DNA of 64,000 nt from Quadrisphaera sp. DSM 44207 (GTDB lineage: Bacteria; Actinomycetota; Actinomycetes; Actinomycetales; Quadrisphaeraceae). This document shows, one piece after another, positions 39,945 to 47,221 of this stretch; positions within the stretch are counted from its first letter, which is position 1; every line of letters begins with the position of its first letter. The notes under the pieces were generated by a model, which was not told where the DNA came from, ran no database searches, and was given only the letters and a program-made list of their open reading frames with translations. A program made the position numbers and the translations under genes. The stretch is from NCBI RefSeq assembly GCF_900101335.1, contig NZ_FNKA01000001.1:248001-312000 (forward strand), given 5' to 3'.

Positions 39945-40631
39945 GTGAGCAGCCGCGTCCTGGCAGCCGCCGTCGCCGCCGGGGCGGTCGCCGTGGTCGG
40001 GTGGCCGCTGGGCGGGATCCTGGCGCGCACGGCGCTCAGCCCGCGGCAGCGGGCGCGACCCGGCACCGGCGCCGTCGTCGTCCTCGGTTCCACCCTGCAG
40101 GACGGCGCCGTCCCCCCGGTGCTCGCCAGCCGCCTGCAGCGCGCCGCCGCCGTCTACCGGGAGGCGGCCGCGGCCGGACGACCGCCGCTCGTGGTCGCCT
40201 CCGGGGGCGGCGACGGCGCGACCTCGGAGGCCTCCGCCATGGCCGCCGCCCTCGTGGGCCTCGGGGTCCCGGTCGAGCGCCTGGTGCTGGAGGAGGTCTC
40301 GACCACCACCCGGGAGAACCTCGCCGAGAGCGCGGCGCTGCTGGCCCGGCGCGCCGGGGCGCCGCGCGCCGTGGTGGTCACGAGCGACTTCCACGTCTGG
40401 CGCACCGCCGCCCTCGCCCGCCGCGCGGGCCTGCGCGCGCAGGTGCTCGGCGCGCCGACGCCGGCGCGCTCCCTGCCGCGGGCGCTGCTGCGCGAGTCCG
40501 CGCTGGTGCTGGGCTCGCAGCGCTGGAGCGTCGCGGCGGCGGGTGCCCCGCTCGCCGCGACCGCCGCGCACGCCGCCGTGTGCGCCGCCGTCCGGCGCCC
40601 GCCGGGAGGACGGCGCCCGCCGCGGGCGTGA
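39945..40631 (+). CDS. YdcF/DUF218 family protein
   Basis: A 228-residue protein with one N-terminal membrane segment (about residues 5-28) and a Rossmann-like DUF218 domain (GAVVVLGSTLQDG, ASGGGDGATSEASAMAAAL, STTTRENLAESAALL, VVVTSDFHVWRTAALARRAG). Homologues such as SanA/YdcF take part in envelope processes, but the reaction is unclear. GTG at 39945. Confidence 0.88.
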   Translation: MSSRVLAAAVAAGAVAVVGWPLGGILARTALSPRQRARPGTGAVVVLGSTLQDGAVPPVLASRLQRAAAVYREAAAAGRPPLVVASGGGDGATSEASAMAAALVGLGVPVERLVLEEVSTTTRENLAESAALLARRAGAPRAVVVTSDFHVWRTAALARRAGLRAQVLGAPTPARSLPRALLRESALVLGSQRWSVAAAGAPLAATAAHAAVCAAVRRPPGGRRPPRA

Positions 40632-40647
40632 CGCGCGCCGTGGCGGT

Positions 40648-40676
40648 TTGACGAGGGCGACGCGCTCGGCTTCACT
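40648..40676 (+). promoter_or_regulatory. promoter of the sulfur operon
   Basis: TTGACG (40648-40653) and TTCACT (40671-40676) are separated by 17 bases; the start point would fall just before the riboswitch. Confidence 0.5.
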
Positions 40677-40682
40677 CAGCCT

Positions 40683-40778
40683 CGACCATCCCGAGCGGCC
40701 GAGAGACCTGGCTCGACGACGCCGCAGCAACCACCCGCCCCGACCGGGGCGGGCCGGTGCTACCGCCAGGACCGATGG
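40683..40778 (+). promoter_or_regulatory. SAM (S-box) riboswitch
   Basis: Core elements occur in the right order: GAGCGGCCGAGAGAC (40693-40707), CGACGACGCCGCAGCAACC, a GC-rich variable hairpin, then GGTGCTACCGCCAGGA. P1 can form between CCATC (40686-40690) and GATGG (40774-40778). The latter contains the start codon of the following leader peptide, so SAM binding would hide that ATG. The class is SAM-I-like by sequence. Confidence 0.8.
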
Positions 40779-40870
40779 AGGCTCCTGTGCGCTGCTGCGT
40801 GACCGTCCCGCTGACCCGACGCGTCCGCGTCGACCTGCTGCGCACCGCCAGCGACCTCTGTCGCGGCTGA
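40775..40870 (+). CDS. Cys-containing leader peptide
   Basis: A 31-codon ORF with AGGA upstream of its ATG. It encodes two adjacent Cys (codons 7-8), an LTRRVRVDLLRTAS core and a C-terminal LCRG. This is the pattern of the short actinobacterial putative leader peptides found before sulfur-assimilation operons. Translation through the Cys codons may sense cysteinyl-tRNA. It ends 109 bases before the transporter gene. Confidence 0.75.
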   Translation: MEAPVRCCVTVPLTRRVRVDLLRTASDLCRG

Positions 40871-40979
40871 CCTCCCCCTGACGCCCGGGCGCCGACCGCT
40901 GCGCGCCCGCCGCCAGACCCTCCCCTCCGCGGGCCCGAGCGCGGCCCGCGGTCCCGTGCGCGCCCGCAGGAGAGCATCC

Positions 40980-41795
40980 GTGTCCACCACCCTGGCCCCG
41001 CCCCGCACCAGCTCCGCCGCCGGCGTGCGGCTGCGCGGGGTCGGGCGCACCTTCGGCGCCCGCAGCGCCGCGCGAGGCGACGGGCACGTCGTGCTGCGCG
41101 ACGTCGACCTCGACGTCGCGCCGGGCGAGATCGTCGCCGTCCTCGGCCCGTCCGGGTGCGGCAAGTCCACGCTGCTGCGCGCGGTGGCCGGCCTCGACGC
41201 CCCCAGCCGCGGCGAGGTGCTCGTGGACGGCGCCCCGGTGCGCGGGATCGAGCCCCGCGCCGCCGTCGCCTTCCAGGAGCCGCGGCTGCTGCCCTGGCGC
41301 AGCCTGGCCGGCAACGTCGCGCTCGGCCTGCCGCGCGGCACCTCCCGGGCCGCCGGGCGCGAGCGCGTCGCCGAGCTGCTCGGCCTCGTGGGCCTGGCCG
41401 ACTTCGCCGGCCACCGCCCGCGCAGCGTCTCCGGCGGCATGGCGCAGCGGGTCGCGCTCGCGCGGGCCCTGGCGCGCCGCCCCGGGGTGCTCGTGCTCGA
41501 CGAGCCCTTCGCCGCCCTCGACGCCCTGACCCGCCTGAAGATGCAGGACCTCCTGCTCGACGTGCTGGCGGCCGCGCCCACGACGGTGCTGCTGGTCACG
41601 CACGACGTCGAGGAGGCCCTGCACCTGGCCGACCGCGTCGTCGTCCTCGGCGCCCCGGACGACGGGCGCGGGCCCGGCGCGGGCGTGCGCACGACCGTCC
41701 GCGTGCCCGGGCAGCGCCCCCGCGACCGCGGCGACGCGCGCCTGGCCGCCCTGCGCGCGGACCTGCTCGCCCAGCTCGGCGTCCCGCGCGCCTGA
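40980..41795 (+). CDS. ABC transporter ATP-binding protein, sulfonate/taurine/nitrate type
   Basis: A 271-residue ATPase with Walker A GPSGCGKST, Q-loop FQEPRLLPWR, signature VSGGMAQR, and Walker B VLVLDEPFAALD. The EPRLLPW loop is typical of SsuB/TauB proteins. GTG 40980 with AGGAG upstream. First structural gene after the riboswitch and leader peptide. Import of an organosulfur compound is inferred from the regulation and from metY in the operon. Confidence 0.9.
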   Translation: MSTTLAPPRTSSAAGVRLRGVGRTFGARSAARGDGHVVLRDVDLDVAPGEIVAVLGPSGCGKSTLLRAVAGLDAPSRGEVLVDGAPVRGIEPRAAVAFQEPRLLPWRSLAGNVALGLPRGTSRAAGRERVAELLGLVGLADFAGHRPRSVSGGMAQRVALARALARRPGVLVLDEPFAALDALTRLKMQDLLLDVLAAAPTTVLLVTHDVEEALHLADRVVVLGAPDDGRGPGAGVRTTVRVPGQRPRDRGDARLAALRADLLAQLGVPRA

Positions 41796-41836: not shown

Positions 41837-42919
41837 ATGAGCCTGCGCACCGCCCTCACCTCCTCGACCGCCCTGGCCGCCCTGGCCGCCTCCTCCCTGC
41901 TGCTGACCGGCTGCGCCGCCGGCGAGGACGCCGCCCCGGCCCCCGCCGCGGACGGCGCCAGCAGCAGCGGCGGGGGCGTGGACCCGGCGTGCTCGACCCT
42001 CACCGTCGACTTCGCCACCTACAACCCCCTCTCCCTGGTCGTCCGCGACCAGGGCTGGCTCGAGGCCGCCCTCGCCGAGGACGGAGGGACCGTGGAGTGG
42101 GTGCAGTCCGCGGGCAGCAACAAGGCCAACGAGGCGCTGCGGGCCGGCGCGATCGACGTCGGCTCCACCGCGGGCTCGGCCGCGCTGCTGGCCCGCTCCA
42201 ACGGCTCGCCGATCAGGACGGTCGACGTCTTCAGCCAGCCCGAGTGGTCCGCGCTCGTGGTGCGCGGGGACTCCGACATCGACGGCGTGGAGGACCTGCG
42301 CGGACGCTCGGTGGCCGCGACCACCGGCACCGACCCGTACTTCTTCCTCCTGCAGGCGCTGGAGACCGCGGGCCTGTCGCCGTCGGACGTGACGCTGCAG
42401 AACCTCCAGCACGCCGACGGGCGCACCGCGCTGGACACCGGGCAGGTCGACGCCTGGGCGGGCCTGGACCCGATCATGGCCGCGGCCGAGGCGGAGAGCG
42501 GCGACCGGCTGGTCTACCGCAACGTCGACTTCAACACCTACGGGTTCCTCAACGCCACCGAGGAGTTCCTCTCCACGTGCCCCGAGCAGGCGCAGACCGT
42601 CGTCGACGCCTACGAGCACGCGCGGGCGTGGGCGCAGGAGAACCCGCAGGAGACCGCGAGCGTCCTCGCCGAGGTGGCCGGCATCGACCCGGCCGTGGCG
42701 ACGGCGACGCTGGAGCGCACGACGCTGGACGTCGACCCGGTGCCGGGCGAGGCCCAACGCGCCGTCCTGGAGCGCGTCGGCCCGATCTTCGTCACCAACG
42801 GCGACGTGCCGAGCCAGGAGCAGATCGACGAGGCGCTGGACACCCTGTTCGAGACCACCTACGTCGAGGCCGCCGACCCGGAGGCCTTCGCCGCCGAGCA
42901 CGCGGGCCACTCCTCGTGA
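41837..42919 (+). CDS. ABC transporter substrate-binding lipoprotein, SsuA-like
   Basis: A 360-residue lipoprotein. The lipobox LLTGC (Cys at about residue 25) is followed by a Ser/Gly/Ala linker and an SsuA/NMT1-type binding fold (TVDFATYNPLSLVVRDQGWLE, SNKANEALRAGAIDVGSTAGSAALLA, VKGRSVAATTG-like segment). The ligand is probably an aliphatic sulfonate or related sulfur compound. Its stop overlaps the permease start (GTGA). Confidence 0.9.
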   Translation: MSLRTALTSSTALAALAASSLLLTGCAAGEDAAPAPAADGASSSGGGVDPACSTLTVDFATYNPLSLVVRDQGWLEAALAEDGGTVEWVQSAGSNKANEALRAGAIDVGSTAGSAALLARSNGSPIRTVDVFSQPEWSALVVRGDSDIDGVEDLRGRSVAATTGTDPYFFLLQALETAGLSPSDVTLQNLQHADGRTALDTGQVDAWAGLDPIMAAAEAESGDRLVYRNVDFNTYGFLNATEEFLSTCPEQAQTVVDAYEHARAWAQENPQETASVLAEVAGIDPAVATATLERTTLDVDPVPGEAQRAVLERVGPIFVTNGDVPSQEQIDEALDTLFETTYVEAADPEAFAAEHAGHSS

Positions 42920-43806
42920 GCACCGGCCGGACGAGCGCCGACACCGACCGGGTCGACACCGCGCGGTGGGCGGGTCTGGTCCGGCGCAGCATCCCGCTGC
43001 CCGGATCGGACGTGCCGGGCACGATCCCGCCCCCGCCGAGCGAGGGCGCGCGCCGCCGGGGTGCGCGCAGGGCCGCCCTCGGCGCCGTCCTGCCGCTGCT
43101 GCTCCTGCTGGCCTGGGAGCTGGTCACCCGCGCCGGGGTCTTCTCCCCCGTGCAGCTGCCGGGCCCGGCGGCCGTGGTGCGCGCCGGCGTGGACCTGGTC
43201 ACGCGGGGCCTGCTGCTGCCCTACGTCGGCATCTCCGTGCAGCGGGTGTTGGTCGGCTTCGCCGTCGGCGCGGCCCTGGGCCTGGCGGTCGGCGCGCTCG
43301 TCGGCCTGTCCAGGCCGGCCGACGTCCTGCTCGGGCCGACGATCGGCGGGGTGCGCGCCGTGCCCTCGCTGGCGTGGGTGCCGCTGCTCATCCTGTGGCA
43401 GGGCATCGGGGAGGACTCGAAGACGACGCTCATCGCCATCGGCGCCTTCTTCCCCGTCTACACCACCGCGGCCTCCGCGCTGCGCCACGTCGACCGCCAG
43501 CTCGTCGAGGCCGGCCGCGCGTTCGGGCTGCGCGGCCTGCGGCTGCTGGGCGCCGTCCAGCTGCCCGCCGCCGTGCCCGGCGTCCTCGCCGGCCTGCGCC
43601 TGGCCCTGGCCCAGGGCTGGCTCTTCCTCGTGGCGGCCGAGCTCATCGCGTCCTCGATGGGCCTGGGCTTCCTGCTGCAGGACAGCCAGAACAACGGGCG
43701 CACCGACCGGATCCTGCTGGCGATCATCCTGCTGGCGGTGCTGGGCAAGCTCAGCGACGCGGTCATCGGCCTCTTCGAGCGCTGGGCGCTGCGGAGGTGG
43801 GCGTGA
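42916..43806 (+). CDS. ABC transporter permease, SsuC-like
   Basis: A 296-residue permease with six predicted membrane segments and the EAA-type loop (VEAGRAFGLRGLRLLGAVQLPAAVPGVLAGLR). The ~55-residue N-terminal extension before the first helix is long and Pro/Arg-rich. GTG overlaps the upstream stop, and its stop overlaps the next start (GTGA, 43803-43806). Confidence 0.9.
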   Translation: MSTGRTSADTDRVDTARWAGLVRRSIPLPGSDVPGTIPPPPSEGARRRGARRAALGAVLPLLLLLAWELVTRAGVFSPVQLPGPAAVVRAGVDLVTRGLLLPYVGISVQRVLVGFAVGAALGLAVGALVGLSRPADVLLGPTIGGVRAVPSLAWVPLLILWQGIGEDSKTTLIAIGAFFPVYTTAASALRHVDRQLVEAGRAFGLRGLRLLGAVQLPAAVPGVLAGLRLALAQGWLFLVAAELIASSMGLGFLLQDSQNNGRTDRILLAIILLAVLGKLSDAVIGLFERWALRRWA

Positions 43807-45863
43807 GCACCCTCGGCAGCGACGCGCTGACCACCCTGCTCGACGAGCAGCGCACCTTCGCCCCGCCGCCGGAGCTGGCGGCCGCGGCGAACCTCGGCCC
43901 GGAGGCGCACGAGCGCGCCGCCGCGGACCCGGAGGCGTTCTGGGCCGAGCAGGCGCAGCGCCTGAGCTGGGAGGCGCCCTGGCACACGGTGCTCGACTGG
44001 CGCCCGGCCGTGCCCGTCGACGACGCCTGCGAGAACGGCTGCGAGGACGGCGACCTGACCGTGCCGTCCGCGCGGTGGTTCCTCGGCGGGCGCCTGAACG
44101 CGGCCGTGAACTGCGTGGACCGGCACGTGGCCGCCGGGCACGGGGACCGCGTCGCGGTGCACTTCGAGGGCGAGCCGGGCGACCGGCGCACGATCACGTA
44201 CGCGGACCTGCTCGCCGAGGTCTGCCGCGCCGCCAACGCTCTGACCGACCTCGGTGTGCGTCCCGGCGACCGCGTCGTCCTGTACATGCCCGTCATCCCC
44301 GAGACGCTGGTGGCGATCCTCGCGGTGGCGCGGATCGGGGCCGTGCACTCCCTCGTCTTCGGCGGGTTCTCCGCCGAGGCGCTGCGCTTCCGCGTCGCCG
44401 ACACCGGCGCGAAGGTCGTCGTCACCACCGACGGGCAGTTCCGCCGCGGTCGCGCGGTCGGGGTCAAGGCCACCGTCGACGAGGCGGTGGCGGGCCTGCC
44501 GGACCTCGAGCACGTCCTCGTGGTGCGGCGCACCGGCGACGCCCTGGACGCGCCACCGCCGTGGACGCCGGGCCGGGACGCGTGGTGGCACGAGAGCGTG
44601 GGCCGGGCGGACGCCGTCCACGAGGCGGCGGCGTTCGACGCCGAGCACCCGCTGTTCGTCATCTACACCTCCGGCTCCACGGGCAGGCCCAAGGGGCTGC
44701 TGCACACCACCGGCGGGTACCTGACCCACGCGTCCTACGCGCACTGGGCGCACTTCGACGCCAAGCCCGCCACCGACGTCCACTGGTGCACCGCCGACCT
44801 CGCGTGGGTCACCGCGCACACCTTCGCGGTCTACGGGCCGCTGACCAACGGCGTGACGCAGGTGATGTACGAGGGCACCCCGGACACCCCGCACCGCGGG
44901 CGGCACTTCGAGGTGATCGAGCGGTACGGGGTGACGACGTACTACACGGCGCCGACGCTGGTGCGGACGTTCATGGCGTGGGGCCCCGAGGTGCCCGCGG
45001 GCCACGACCTGTCCAGCGTGCGGCTGCTGGGCAGCGTCGGGGAGCCGATCAACCCCGAGGCGTGGGTGTGGTTCCGCGAGCACGTCGGCGGCGGGCGCGC
45101 ACCGGTGGTCGACACGTGGTGGCAGTCCGAGACCGGCGCGACCGTGGTCGCGCCGCTGCCGGGCTCGACCGTGCTCAAGCCCGGCTCGGCGACCCGCCCG
45201 CTGCCGGGCCTGGACGCCGCGGTCGTCGACGGCTCCGGGCGCGAGGTCTCCCCCGGCGAGGGCGGGTACCTCGTCATCCGCCGCCCCTGGCCCGGCATGG
45301 CCCGCACGGTGTGGGGGGACCCGGAGCGCTACCGCGACTCCTACTGGCGCCGGTTCGCCGCGCAGGGCTGGTACACCGCCGGGGACGGCGCCCGCTACGA
45401 CGCCGACCGCTACCTGTGGCTGCTGGGGCGCCTGGACGACGTGGTCAACGTCTCCGGGCACCGGATGTCGACCTCGGAGGTGGAGTCCGCGCTCGTGGCG
45501 CACCCGCAGGTCGCCGAGGCCGGCGTCGTCGGCGTGCCCGACGAGCGCACCGGGCAGGCGATCGCGGCCTTCGTCGTCCCCACCCGGCGCGAGGCGCTGG
45601 AGGCGGACCCGGCCGAGCGGGCGGCGCTGGAGGCCGAGCTGCGCGCCCAGGTCGCCTCGGTGATCGGACCGGTCGCGAAGCCGCGCGACGTCGTCCTCGT
45701 CGCCGACCTGCCCAAGACCCGGTCGGGGAAGATCGTGCGCCGGCTGCTGGGCGACCTGCTCGTCGGCCGCGACGTCGGCGACACCACCTCCCTGCAGGAC
45801 GAGGCGGCGCTGAGCGCCGTCGAGGACGCCCTGCGCCGCAGACCGACCCGGAGCGGAGGATGA
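43803..45863 (+). CDS. acs: acetate-CoA ligase (acetyl-CoA synthetase)
   Basis: A 686-residue adenylate-forming enzyme that makes acetyl-CoA from acetate. The P-loop is YTSGSTGRPKGLLHTTGGYL, the acetyl-CoA-synthetase pocket DTWWQSETG (its Trp favours acetate), and the C-terminal hinge and catalytic Lys are in PKTRSGKIVRR. The N-terminus differs from typical Acs (an ENGCEDG insertion). It is translationally coupled to the transporter upstream and to metY downstream. Placement in a sulfur operon fits recycling of the acetate released by MetY. Confidence 0.9.
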   Translation: MSTLGSDALTTLLDEQRTFAPPPELAAAANLGPEAHERAAADPEAFWAEQAQRLSWEAPWHTVLDWRPAVPVDDACENGCEDGDLTVPSARWFLGGRLNAAVNCVDRHVAAGHGDRVAVHFEGEPGDRRTITYADLLAEVCRAANALTDLGVRPGDRVVLYMPVIPETLVAILAVARIGAVHSLVFGGFSAEALRFRVADTGAKVVVTTDGQFRRGRAVGVKATVDEAVAGLPDLEHVLVVRRTGDALDAPPPWTPGRDAWWHESVGRADAVHEAAAFDAEHPLFVIYTSGSTGRPKGLLHTTGGYLTHASYAHWAHFDAKPATDVHWCTADLAWVTAHTFAVYGPLTNGVTQVMYEGTPDTPHRGRHFEVIERYGVTTYYTAPTLVRTFMAWGPEVPAGHDLSSVRLLGSVGEPINPEAWVWFREHVGGGRAPVVDTWWQSETGATVVAPLPGSTVLKPGSATRPLPGLDAAVVDGSGREVSPGEGGYLVIRRPWPGMARTVWGDPERYRDSYWRRFAAQGWYTAGDGARYDADRYLWLLGRLDDVVNVSGHRMSTSEVESALVAHPQVAEAGVVGVPDERTGQAIAAFVVPTRREALEADPAERAALEAELRAQVASVIGPVAKPRDVVLVADLPKTRSGKIVRRLLGDLLVGRDVGDTTSLQDEAALSAVEDALRRRPTRSGG

Positions 45864-47221
45864 CTCCCGTGACCGACGACGTTCTTCCTCCCGTGAGCGA
45901 CCAGACCAGCGACGGGCGCCCCGAGCGGCCCAGCGACCGGACCTTCGGCTTCCGCACCCGCGCCCTGCACGCGGGCGGCACCCCCGACTCCGCCACCGGT
46001 GCGCGGGCGGTGCCGATCTACCAGAGCACGAGCTTCGTCTTCGAGGACACCGACGACGCGGCCAACCTGTTCAGCCTGCAGAAGTACGGCAACATCTACA
46101 GCCGCCTGGCCAACCCGACGGTCGCGGCCTTCGAGGAGCGCATCGCCTCCCTCGAGGGCGGAATCGGCGCGGTGGCCACGGCGTCCGGCATGTCGGCGGA
46201 GTTCGTCACCTTCGCCGCCCTGGCCGGGGCCGGTGACCACGTCGTGGCCGGCAGCCAGCTCTACGGCGGCACCGTCACGCTGCTCGACGTCACGATGCGC
46301 CGGTTCGGCGTCGACACCACGTTCGTGCCCGGCACCGACCCGAAGGACTTCGAGGCCGCGATCCGCCCGACCACGAAGGCGATCTACAGCGAGGTCGTGG
46401 CCAACCCCTCCGGGGAGGTCGCCGACATCGCCGGGCTGGCCGAGGTCGCGCACCGCAACGGGCTGCCGCTGGTGCTCGACGCGACGCTGTCGACGCCGTA
46501 CCTGGTGCGCCCGATCGAGCACGGCGCCGACATCGTCATCCACTCGGCGACGAAGTTCCTCGGCGGGCACGGGACGACGCTGGGCGGCGTGGTCGTGGAG
46601 GCCGGCACCTTCGACTGGGGCAGCGGCCGCTTCCCGCAGATGACCGAGCCGGTGCCCTCCTACAACGGCATCCGGTGGTGGCAGAACTTCGGGGAGTACG
46701 GGTTCCTCACCAAGCTGCGCTCCGAGCAGCTGCGCGACACCGGCCCTACGCTCTCCGCGCAGTCGGCGTTCCAGCTGCTGCAGGGCGTGGAGACGCTGCC
46801 CTTCCGCATGGAGGCGCACCTGGCCAACGCGCGCGGCGTCGCCGAGTGGCTGGCGCGCGACCCGCGCGTGTCGTACGTCAGCTGGGCGGGCCTGCCCTCG
46901 CACCCGCACCACGAGCGCGCCAAGCGCTACCTGCCCCTCGGGCCCGGGTCGGTGTTCTCCTTCGGCGTCGTCGGCGGGCGCGCGGCGGGCCGGAGGTTCA
47001 TCGAGTCGGTGCAGCTGGCCAGCCACCTGGCCAACGTCGGGGACACCCGCACGCTCGTCATCCACCCCGGCTCCACCACGCACCAGCAGCTCTCCGACGA
47101 GCAGCTGGAGGTGGCCGGGGTCGCGGAGGACCTGGTGCGCATCAGCGTCGGCCTGGAGGACCTCGACGACATCCTCTGGGACCTCGACCAGGCGCTGACC
47201 ACCGCGACGAAGGAGGCCTGA
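45860..47221 (+). CDS. metY: O-acetylhomoserine sulfhydrylase
   Basis: A 453-residue PLP enzyme of the Cys/Met-metabolism family that makes homocysteine from O-acetylhomoserine and sulfide, releasing acetate. The PLP Lys is in HSATKFLGGHG; YSRLANPT and the phosphate-binding ATASGMSAEF segment are present. The WWQNFGEYGFLTKLRSEQLRD stretch fits MetY rather than MetB. ATG overlaps the acs stop (ATGA). It is the methionine-pathway step that justifies SAM control of the operon. Confidence 0.92.
   Translation: MTPVTDDVLPPVSDQTSDGRPERPSDRTFGFRTRALHAGGTPDSATGARAVPIYQSTSFVFEDTDDAANLFSLQKYGNIYSRLANPTVAAFEERIASLEGGIGAVATASGMSAEFVTFAALAGAGDHVVAGSQLYGGTVTLLDVTMRRFGVDTTFVPGTDPKDFEAAIRPTTKAIYSEVVANPSGEVADIAGLAEVAHRNGLPLVLDATLSTPYLVRPIEHGADIVIHSATKFLGGHGTTLGGVVVEAGTFDWGSGRFPQMTEPVPSYNGIRWWQNFGEYGFLTKLRSEQLRDTGPTLSAQSAFQLLQGVETLPFRMEAHLANARGVAEWLARDPRVSYVSWAGLPSHPHHERAKRYLPLGPGSVFSFGVVGGRAAGRRFIESVQLASHLANVGDTRTLVIHPGSTTHQQLSDEQLEVAGVAEDLVRISVGLEDLDDILWDLDQALTTATKEA

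Follow-up and report, generated by a model that had tools for sequence, protein, structure and literature searches.

The window, by which we mean the whole 64,000-nucleotide stretch of Quadrisphaera sp. DSM 44207 that was analysed, carries on its forward strand a predicted SAM-I aptamer, a short open reading frame (ORF) that ends at position 40870, and a group of genes which protein matches assign to sulfonate uptake and to a metY-like enzyme. A gene for a DUF218 protein (PF02698; 39945 to 40631, same strand) lies immediately upstream of the aptamer. In the region 40400 to 41100 no promoter was detected by a sigma-70 consensus scan, and no intrinsic terminator was found. The features of the locus are the following.

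40683 to 40781 (+): SAM-I riboswitch aptamer, predicted (RF00162; cmscan 44.1 bits, E 5.7e-9)
40686 to 40690 (+): 5' strand of P1, CCATC (sequence, RF00162 alignment)
40774 to 40778 (+): 3' strand of P1, GATGG, with ATG 40775 to 40777 inside (sequence, RF00162 alignment)
40775 to 40786 (+): possible in-frame extension of the leader from the P1 ATG (MEAP), judged unlikely (in frame at 10 of 39 leader loci)
40777 to 40781 (+): Shine-Dalgarno GGAGG of the leader, two bases in common with P1 (sequence)
40787 to 40870 (+): Cys leader peptide, MRCCVTVPLTRRVRVDLLRTASDLCRG, most likely with a GTG start, stop TGA (leave-family-out HMM, NF042934, alignments)
40793 to 40798 (+): Cys codon pair TGC TGC, without conservation (CC in 4 of 39 leaders)
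40859 to 40861 (+): TGT, codon of the conserved C-terminal Cys, nine residues past a fixed Asp and three codons ahead of the stop (+9 in 71 of 74)
40871 to 40965 (+): spacer rich in C and poor in G, putative loading region for Rho (C 0.56, G 0.32)
40968 to 40974 (+): Shine-Dalgarno AGGAGAG of ssuB (sequence)
40980 to 41795 (+): ssuB-like ABC transporter ATPase, GTG 40980 (PF00005; NCBIfam sulfonate/nitrate/taurine ATPases below their cut-offs)
41837 to 42919 (+): ssuA-like substrate-binding protein (TIGR01728, 212.3 bits, cut-off 163.5)
42904 to 43806 (+): ssuC-like permease, start tentative (PF00528, E 4.4e-23 on 42904 to 43803)
43839 to 45863 (+): acetate--CoA ligase, start tentative (TIGR02188, 834.3 bits, cut-off 724.95)
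45896 to 47221 (+): Cys/Met PLP-dependent enzyme, metY-like, start tentative (PF01053, E 7.8e-126)

The match to RF00162, obtained with cmscan in a 401-base stretch, is full-length (model positions 1 to 108 of 108), and its score lies 0.3 bits under the Rfam gathering score of 44.4, the margin by which the window aptamer is absent from an Rfam scan at the curated threshold. A sister aptamer of the same genome scores 53; altogether this genome has four RF00162 matches and, elsewhere, three SAM-IV matches, and at least 85 of the 198 genomes of the set of relatives have an RF00162 match above the cut-off. The identity of 40683 to 40781 as a SAM-I riboswitch is well supported by these sequence comparisons, and binding of SAM is predicted. 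The initial annotation had P1 pair CCATC with GATGG; the sequence and the RF00162 alignment, which could have put this stem elsewhere, bear out precisely this pairing, between 40686 to 40690 and 40774 to 40778. When the aptamer RNA was folded by itself (z -2.1), the structure of lowest energy lacked P1. The proposal that the leader peptide is the output of the riboswitch agrees with the anatomy of the locus, given that P1 is placed to block translation, the leader is the first ORF, and a sulfur operon lies downstream.

Initiation site of the leader in the window and its relatives

The 3' strand of P1 (40774 to 40778) overlaps the initiation site of the leader, since the sequence and the RF00162 alignment put GGAGG at 40777 to 40781; in GATGGAGGCTCCTGTG, downstream of P1, GGAGG is followed by five bases and then by GTG at 40787. 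The ATG at 40775 to 40777 is in frame with the ORF ending at 40870. The loci used for comparison (L001 to L114) include four of the window's genome, 30 selected by program and 80 hand-picked among the matches listed, 20 of these in list order and the rest giving precedence to the same family, with some near-duplicates skipped. The aptamer pattern, which forces the first four pairs of P1, missed four of the 114 loci (L005, L009, L045 and L103, of which L045 coincides with a leader hit) and yielded 112 aptamer places from 110 loci. The first ORF after these aptamers was a structural gene in 45 places, a leader in 37, another short ORF in 23, and unassigned in seven; two of the short ORFs, L074 and L091, were recognised by eye as leaders, which brings these to 39. 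The proportion 39 of 112 is not a rate, because the places were partly hand-picked. Five families, with 22 genomes, contribute the 39 loci in which a leader follows SAM-I.

At the point where P1 meets the Shine-Dalgarno, the sequence was GATGGAGG in 65 and GATGGGAG in 19 of the 112 places surveyed in the order (84 together), ahead of leaders and structural genes alike, and a start codon was located 8 to 12 bases past GATG in 34 of the 39 leaders and in 36 of the 45 structural genes. From these counts and from the shared spacing of the starts, the fusion of P1 with the Shine-Dalgarno can be read as the expression platform that SAM-I switches of the window's order generally use. A longer P1 covering the entire Shine-Dalgarno site was considered and discarded, given that positions 6 to 12 were paired in only 9 to 55% of the 112 places.

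In a reading that builds on the arrangement originally described, the leader would start at ATG 40775 in P1, binding of SAM would conceal this very codon, and the sensor would be the pair of neighbouring Cys codons. The ATG is in frame in the window, with AGGA a few bases upstream, and it is in frame and open in 22 of the 45 structural genes that directly follow an aptamer; however, it is in frame with the leader in only 10 of the 39 leader loci (window included), where 13 would be expected if the frame were random, GGAGG followed by GTG fits the spacing seen in the relatives, and adjacent cysteines occur in the window and in just three other leaders. Moreover, the AU of the P1 3' strand is already part of the aptamer consensus, therefore the conservation of the ATG needs no start codon. 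Because of the Shine-Dalgarno fusion and its spacing, the low number of loci in frame, and an ATG explained by the aptamer, we set the leader start at GTG 40787, where translation most likely begins, and leave ATG 40775 only a slim chance of being used. The presence of an in-frame ATG inside GATGG is thus correct as an observation and was judged unlikely as a start; likewise, the overlap that was searched for in relatives recurs as a fusion of P1 with the Shine-Dalgarno, with the P1 ATG in frame at a minority of the leader loci. The initial annotation was right in most of what it observed, with a start codon that is probably misplaced, and right in part in its interpretation. The case also advises caution, as the ATG found in the stem of a riboswitch may belong to the aptamer and not be a start codon.

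The leader group and its cysteine codons

The ORF of the window, with 27 residues, is supported as a leader of a conserved group by several comparisons. A leader profile built without the window's family ranked it first of six frames (E 9.3e-6; next 0.097), and a leader pattern, composed once examples were known, was present after 37 of 110 aptamers, compared with 0.03 expected in dinucleotide shuffles. The 'putative leader peptide' family NF042934 matched the window leader with 16.6 bits (E 0.0044), below its curated cut-off of 27, hence we regard the leader as a homologue and not as a formal member. At E ≤ 0.1, NF042934 matched 31 of the 37 leaders of alignment A2, and the Cys-rich leader families Ms5788A (NF042933) and Ms4527A (NF042936) matched 17 and 14 of the 37. 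In alignment A1 (20 leaders) R and D are invariant and Cys is nearly so, and A2 (37 of the 39 leaders, without L018 and L091, four rows being N-terminally trimmed) is alike. The group is wide, with a hit at E ≤ 1e-4 in 153 of the 246 genomes of the class sample, and the pooled change between close leader pairs (pN/pS 0.73) indicates no more than weak constraint. The ten proteins examined downstream of leaders were four solute-binding and two FAD-NAD(P)-binding proteins, a Cys/Met PLP enzyme, a nitrite/sulfite reductase, a rhodanese-like protein and a flavin reductase. A second leader of the window's genome, MAGHFHAARRRHVDLRRTAGGSCP (L116), precedes a gene with rhodanese-like domains (PF00581), and its stretch gave no Rfam match. 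In this genome L001 and L004 have the switch but no such leader, L116 has the leader with no switch found, and the window has both together, which makes leader and switch separable parts.

The two adjacent Cys codons and the third one near the end of the leader are present as the initial annotation stated, but the pair is the part that varies, and the third Cys is the conserved residue. In 74 leaders (39 after SAM-I aptamers, eight after SAM-IV aptamers and 27 without an aptamer found) a Cys is located at +9 from the Asp of VDL in 71, of which 66 encode it with UGU. UGU represents 28 of 467 Cys codons in coding frames sampled from the window's genome, a background obtained with a custom G+C filter. 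At its remaining positions in the SAM-I leaders, Cys is encoded by UGC in 27 of 30 cases; in a second set of 28 leaders the codons at such positions are mixed (seven UGC, six UGU). Since the codons of nearby conserved residues vary (V, GTC/GTG; L, CTG/CTC; R, CGC/CGG/CGT), UGU is probably not mere inherited sequence, even though the loci are related. From this pattern the third Cys is more likely to be the sensor than the adjacent pair. UGU would be a rare, wobble-read codon at which the pause would lengthen when cysteinyl-tRNA is short; alternatively, it would belong to an RNA element CUGUC, as C precedes UGU in 86% and follows it in 94% of the leaders (n=72). Pairing of the leader CUGUC with a GACAG in the spacer was tried and abandoned: it was found at 3 of 33 loci against 3.0 expected, and with G-U pairs allowed at 30 sites against 23.7. 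Two of the 39 leaders (L012 and L013, one genus) contain no Cys, so that cysteine cannot be the sole reason for the leader.

Association with SAM-I and SAM-IV aptamers

In the 198 genomes, at least 44 of 136 leader hits have a SAM-I aptamer upstream of them, in the same orientation and no more than 150 bases away, where chance would give 0.009 (for genomes of 4.5 million bases); this figure denotes co-location and not an unbiased rate, because the profile was built from leaders beside SAM-I aptamers. Among relatives with a homologous ssuB, the order SAM-I, leader, ssuB occurs in L054, L074 and L095, and SAM-I stands directly on ssuB in L006, L007, L029, L038, L047 and L098. The same type of leader follows a SAM-IV aptamer at eight loci (L345, L351, L354 to L358, and L209/L359), one of which (G392) is outside the order. 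The SAM-IV pattern failed at 6 of 31 loci, and 1 of the 25 that were read had a leader of the window's type; the remaining SAM-IV cases come from the comparison of hit coordinates or from Rfam. In the class sample, a pattern search showed no such leader within 60 bases after the best 30 SAM-I and the best 30 SAM-IV loci (at least one locus, L248, was out of register). Among the best 30 leader loci of the class, one of which (L220) yielded no ORF with the pattern, L209 was the one where Rfam placed an aptamer. From these results, the pairing of SAM aptamer and leader appears frequent in the order and rare elsewhere as sampled. The SAM-I/IV variant RF01725 had no match in 148 genomes, a result that says nothing about its absence, given that the control genomes also gave none. 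In 80 loci found through SsuB, the sole leader-like ORFs, in L128, are unlike the leader family of the window, and a comparison of nine of these loci and L116 with Rfam returned one SAM-I aptamer (L123), on the strand opposite ssuB.

Other short ORFs were observed next to SAM aptamers. L023, whose ssuB is the closest to that of the window (71% identical), has between aptamer and ssuB an ORF of 32 residues with six Cys, MPPTYRPCEVEFHGVAAASCCPAPTLTCRCCL. In the window's genome, two SAM-IV aptamers (L290, L291) stand before short ORFs that contain Cys but do not resemble the HVDL group: MTSRRCR is ahead of a gene for a Cys/Met PLP enzyme (PF01053), and MRCSPCP... (MRCSPCPAPRHLPRRPARRDDPCRRGPRTAVHR) is ahead of an ABC ATPase gene (PF00005) that we read as methionine-transporter-like. 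In another genus of the window's family, all four SAM-I loci L026, L030, L031 and L058 have an 8-codon ORF, M-S-x-C-M-x-x-R and stop, and approximately 185 to 220 bases past the aptamer begins the next gene, whose product looks like a solute-binding lipoprotein. In eight loci of family f14 (L014, L015, L036, L037, L039, L041, L044 and L049) SAM-I is followed by an ORF of 19 to 20 residues without Cys, for instance MMRSTDVVDAYPVPVPGSPR, which is possibly a second leader type. Finally, SAM-I and SAM-IV occur on opposite strands, about 100 bases apart, in G012:C221:2149-2458 and G007:C31:34109-34414.

A possible two-step sulfur sensor and its alternatives

The spacer between leader and ssuB has a C minus G of 0.242, a value reached by none of 24 control upstream regions of the same genome (mean 0.015, one reaching 0.2), which were taken from 93 genes of this one genome predicted with a crude custom gene finder. 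Spacers were collected for 33 of the 37 pattern leaders, with the start of the next gene picked by hand (L016, L073 and L093 had no next gene, and L081, of 249 bases, was excluded); C exceeds G in all 33, with a mean difference of 0.27, compared with -0.008 upstream of the aptamers, 0.087 in the leaders and 0.123 in the first 150 bases of genes. The genes after the leaders also have more C than G in 31 of 33 cases, less strongly than the spacers. Rho loads on untranslated RNA that is rich in C and poor in G. The excess of C in 33 of 33 spacers fits such loading, and for this reason we propose Rho for the spacer, whose composition is a fitting sign of a putative rut site. Six loci (L061, L065, L069, L072, L078 and L090) have a hairpin GACGGAC...GTCCGCC directly ahead of the ribosome site of the downstream gene, with an outer stem that is kept while the inside varies, in L065 and L069 on both sides.

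We propose, with about even confidence, that a single 5' leader RNA of the window senses sulfur in two steps, combining SAM-controlled ribosome loading, stalling at Cys and shielding from Rho. With SAM bound, P1 (CCATC/GATGG) would form and cover part of GGAGG, and ribosomes would not load on the leader; the anatomy of this step is observed, its effect is what we infer. When SAM is low, the leader would be translated, and with plentiful cysteinyl-tRNA the ribosome would reach the stop and leave; if cysteinyl-tRNA is scarce as well, it would presumably wait at the conserved UGU three codons ahead of the stop. An absent or departed ribosome would expose the spacer to Rho and bring an early end of transcription, and a ribosome parked at UGU would shield the spacer, allowing the sulfonate-uptake operon to be made. 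This shielding step, the weakest of the three, is proposed on account of the spacer composition and of a role of Rho that the available text of PMC1262725 suggests and that of PMC12810186 reports. The net logic would be that the operon is expressed only when both SAM and cysteine are low. That one RNA senses the two in series, as suggested in the initial annotation, is in this light plausible from sequence, and the layout recurs in relatives. More tentatively, and as a possibility we do not favour, Actinobacteria may repeatedly have put a SAM-I or SAM-IV aptamer ahead of one peptide family to give an RNA AND gate, in which SAM would govern ribosome entry, and the nascent chain, with its fixed Asp-to-Cys spacing, together with the rare UGU would govern the stall; the leader would then be more than a hungry-codon counter and would act as an arrest peptide, with the stall determined by its HVDL core.

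The route from leader to ssuB could be a different one. In translation attenuation, which is stated for cysteine genes of M. smegmatis in the accessible part of PMC13236596, the leader region would fold over the ribosome-binding site of ssuB unless a ribosome stalls at Cys, and SAM would gate the loading. In the window alone, opening the ssuB site becomes 3.0 kcal/mol cheaper with a ribosome at the last Cys (-0.9 with shuffled spacers), and in L056 the relief is 5.8 against 1.3 kcal/mol; over the 33 leader loci, however, mean relief was 0.2 kcal/mol against 0.06 in shuffles (p 0.96), which does not support a general hiding of the downstream ribosome site, and the downstream sites were more open than with shuffled spacers (5.7 vs 6.4 kcal/mol, p 0.003). 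We consider this route rather unlikely. The leader could also be a mere carrier of ribosomes under the control of SAM alone, which would bar Rho or feed re-initiation, with a non-regulatory Cys. The two leaders without Cys, the other aptamers of the order that precede short ORFs without Cys, and the M. tuberculosis case, as far as PMC11260477 is available, count in favour of such a carrier; yet a fixed distance between Asp and Cys and a UGU codon would be superfluous for mere translation, and the L116 leader stands ahead of a rhodanese-like gene of the same genome with no aptamer found, so we hold this reading to be fairly improbable too. Hardly any credence can be given to a chance ORF behind an ordinary riboswitch that acts on ssuB in some other way: the window ORF is indeed short and under the curated leader cut-off, but the frequency of the pattern after aptamers, the profile with the family held out, alignment A2 and the co-location with SAM-I all speak against it.

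Riboswitch base stems that directly overlap initiation sites in Actinobacteria are described in the available portion of PMC1262725, and the translational type of SAM-I (S-box) of this phylum is like the window in having the aptamer fold and a base stem over the initiation site; the window differs in that the covered site is that of a leader peptide and not that of a structural gene, as in 39 of the 112 partly hand-picked places. The same portion of PMC1262725 deals with Cys leaders of cys operons and suggests a role of Rho for those without terminators. Cys upstream ORFs (uORFs) precede cysA2 and nirA in mycobacteria and, in the consulted sections of PMC4633059, they lie on leaderless transcripts, whereas the ORF of the window is preceded by an aptamer and has its own Shine-Dalgarno. 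The actinobacterial Cys leaders (NF042934, Ms5788A, Ms4527A and the polycysteine uORFs) share with the window a short ORF, Cys near its end, a position before sulfur genes and detectable homology. The polycysteine uORFs have a Cys run, in contrast to the single conserved terminal Cys with its UGU codon in the group of the window. Experimental work on polycysteine attenuators has reportedly been carried out (Canestrari 2020).

Riboswitches that control or join a small upstream ORF are present in M. tuberculosis (B12 of metE/ppe2; Mbox of pe20) according to the available text of PMC11260477 and PMC12810186, and Rho-dependent termination is reported for the Mbox uORF (PMC12810186, in part); their ligands are others, and in these portions no uORF is described as being itself an amino-acid sensor. 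In the SAM-II riboswitch of metA from Sinorhizobium meliloti, SAM hides a Shine-Dalgarno away from the real start, as is predicted for the window, but the aptamer class is another one, the start is at the in-frame AUG2, and the available part of PMC9373788 describes no Cys leader. The uORFC-8-2 before cysS of Rhodobacterales likewise has tandem Cys codons and differs by its intrinsic terminator, by its phylum and in that no riboswitch is named in the accessible text of PMC8632094. For Streptomyces lividans, SAM switches and leaders are given as separate items in the consulted part of PMC8079986; the metL leader before metNIQ, published there (Table 4) as methionine-dependent, has three Cys near its end (CMCRRMC), and it might be readable as a Cys leader. 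In the titles and abstract openings of the papers listed from the open-licence PMC literature we found no description of a SAM riboswitch controlling a leader peptide, nor of a UGU rule in Cys leaders.

The locus joins two known kinds of element in a new way, recurrent in relatives and with a codon-level signature. Riboswitches and leader-peptide attenuators are usually seen as alternatives, but in this locus the one seems to feed its output into the other, in an arrangement that concerns two linked metabolites, SAM and cysteine, and that is seen again in several families and behind two classes of aptamer. If this is true, it would be a natural two-input sulfur gate, it would suggest one use for the widespread 'putative leader peptide' family, and it would make a sharp prediction at the codon level, the change of UGU to UGC at one position.
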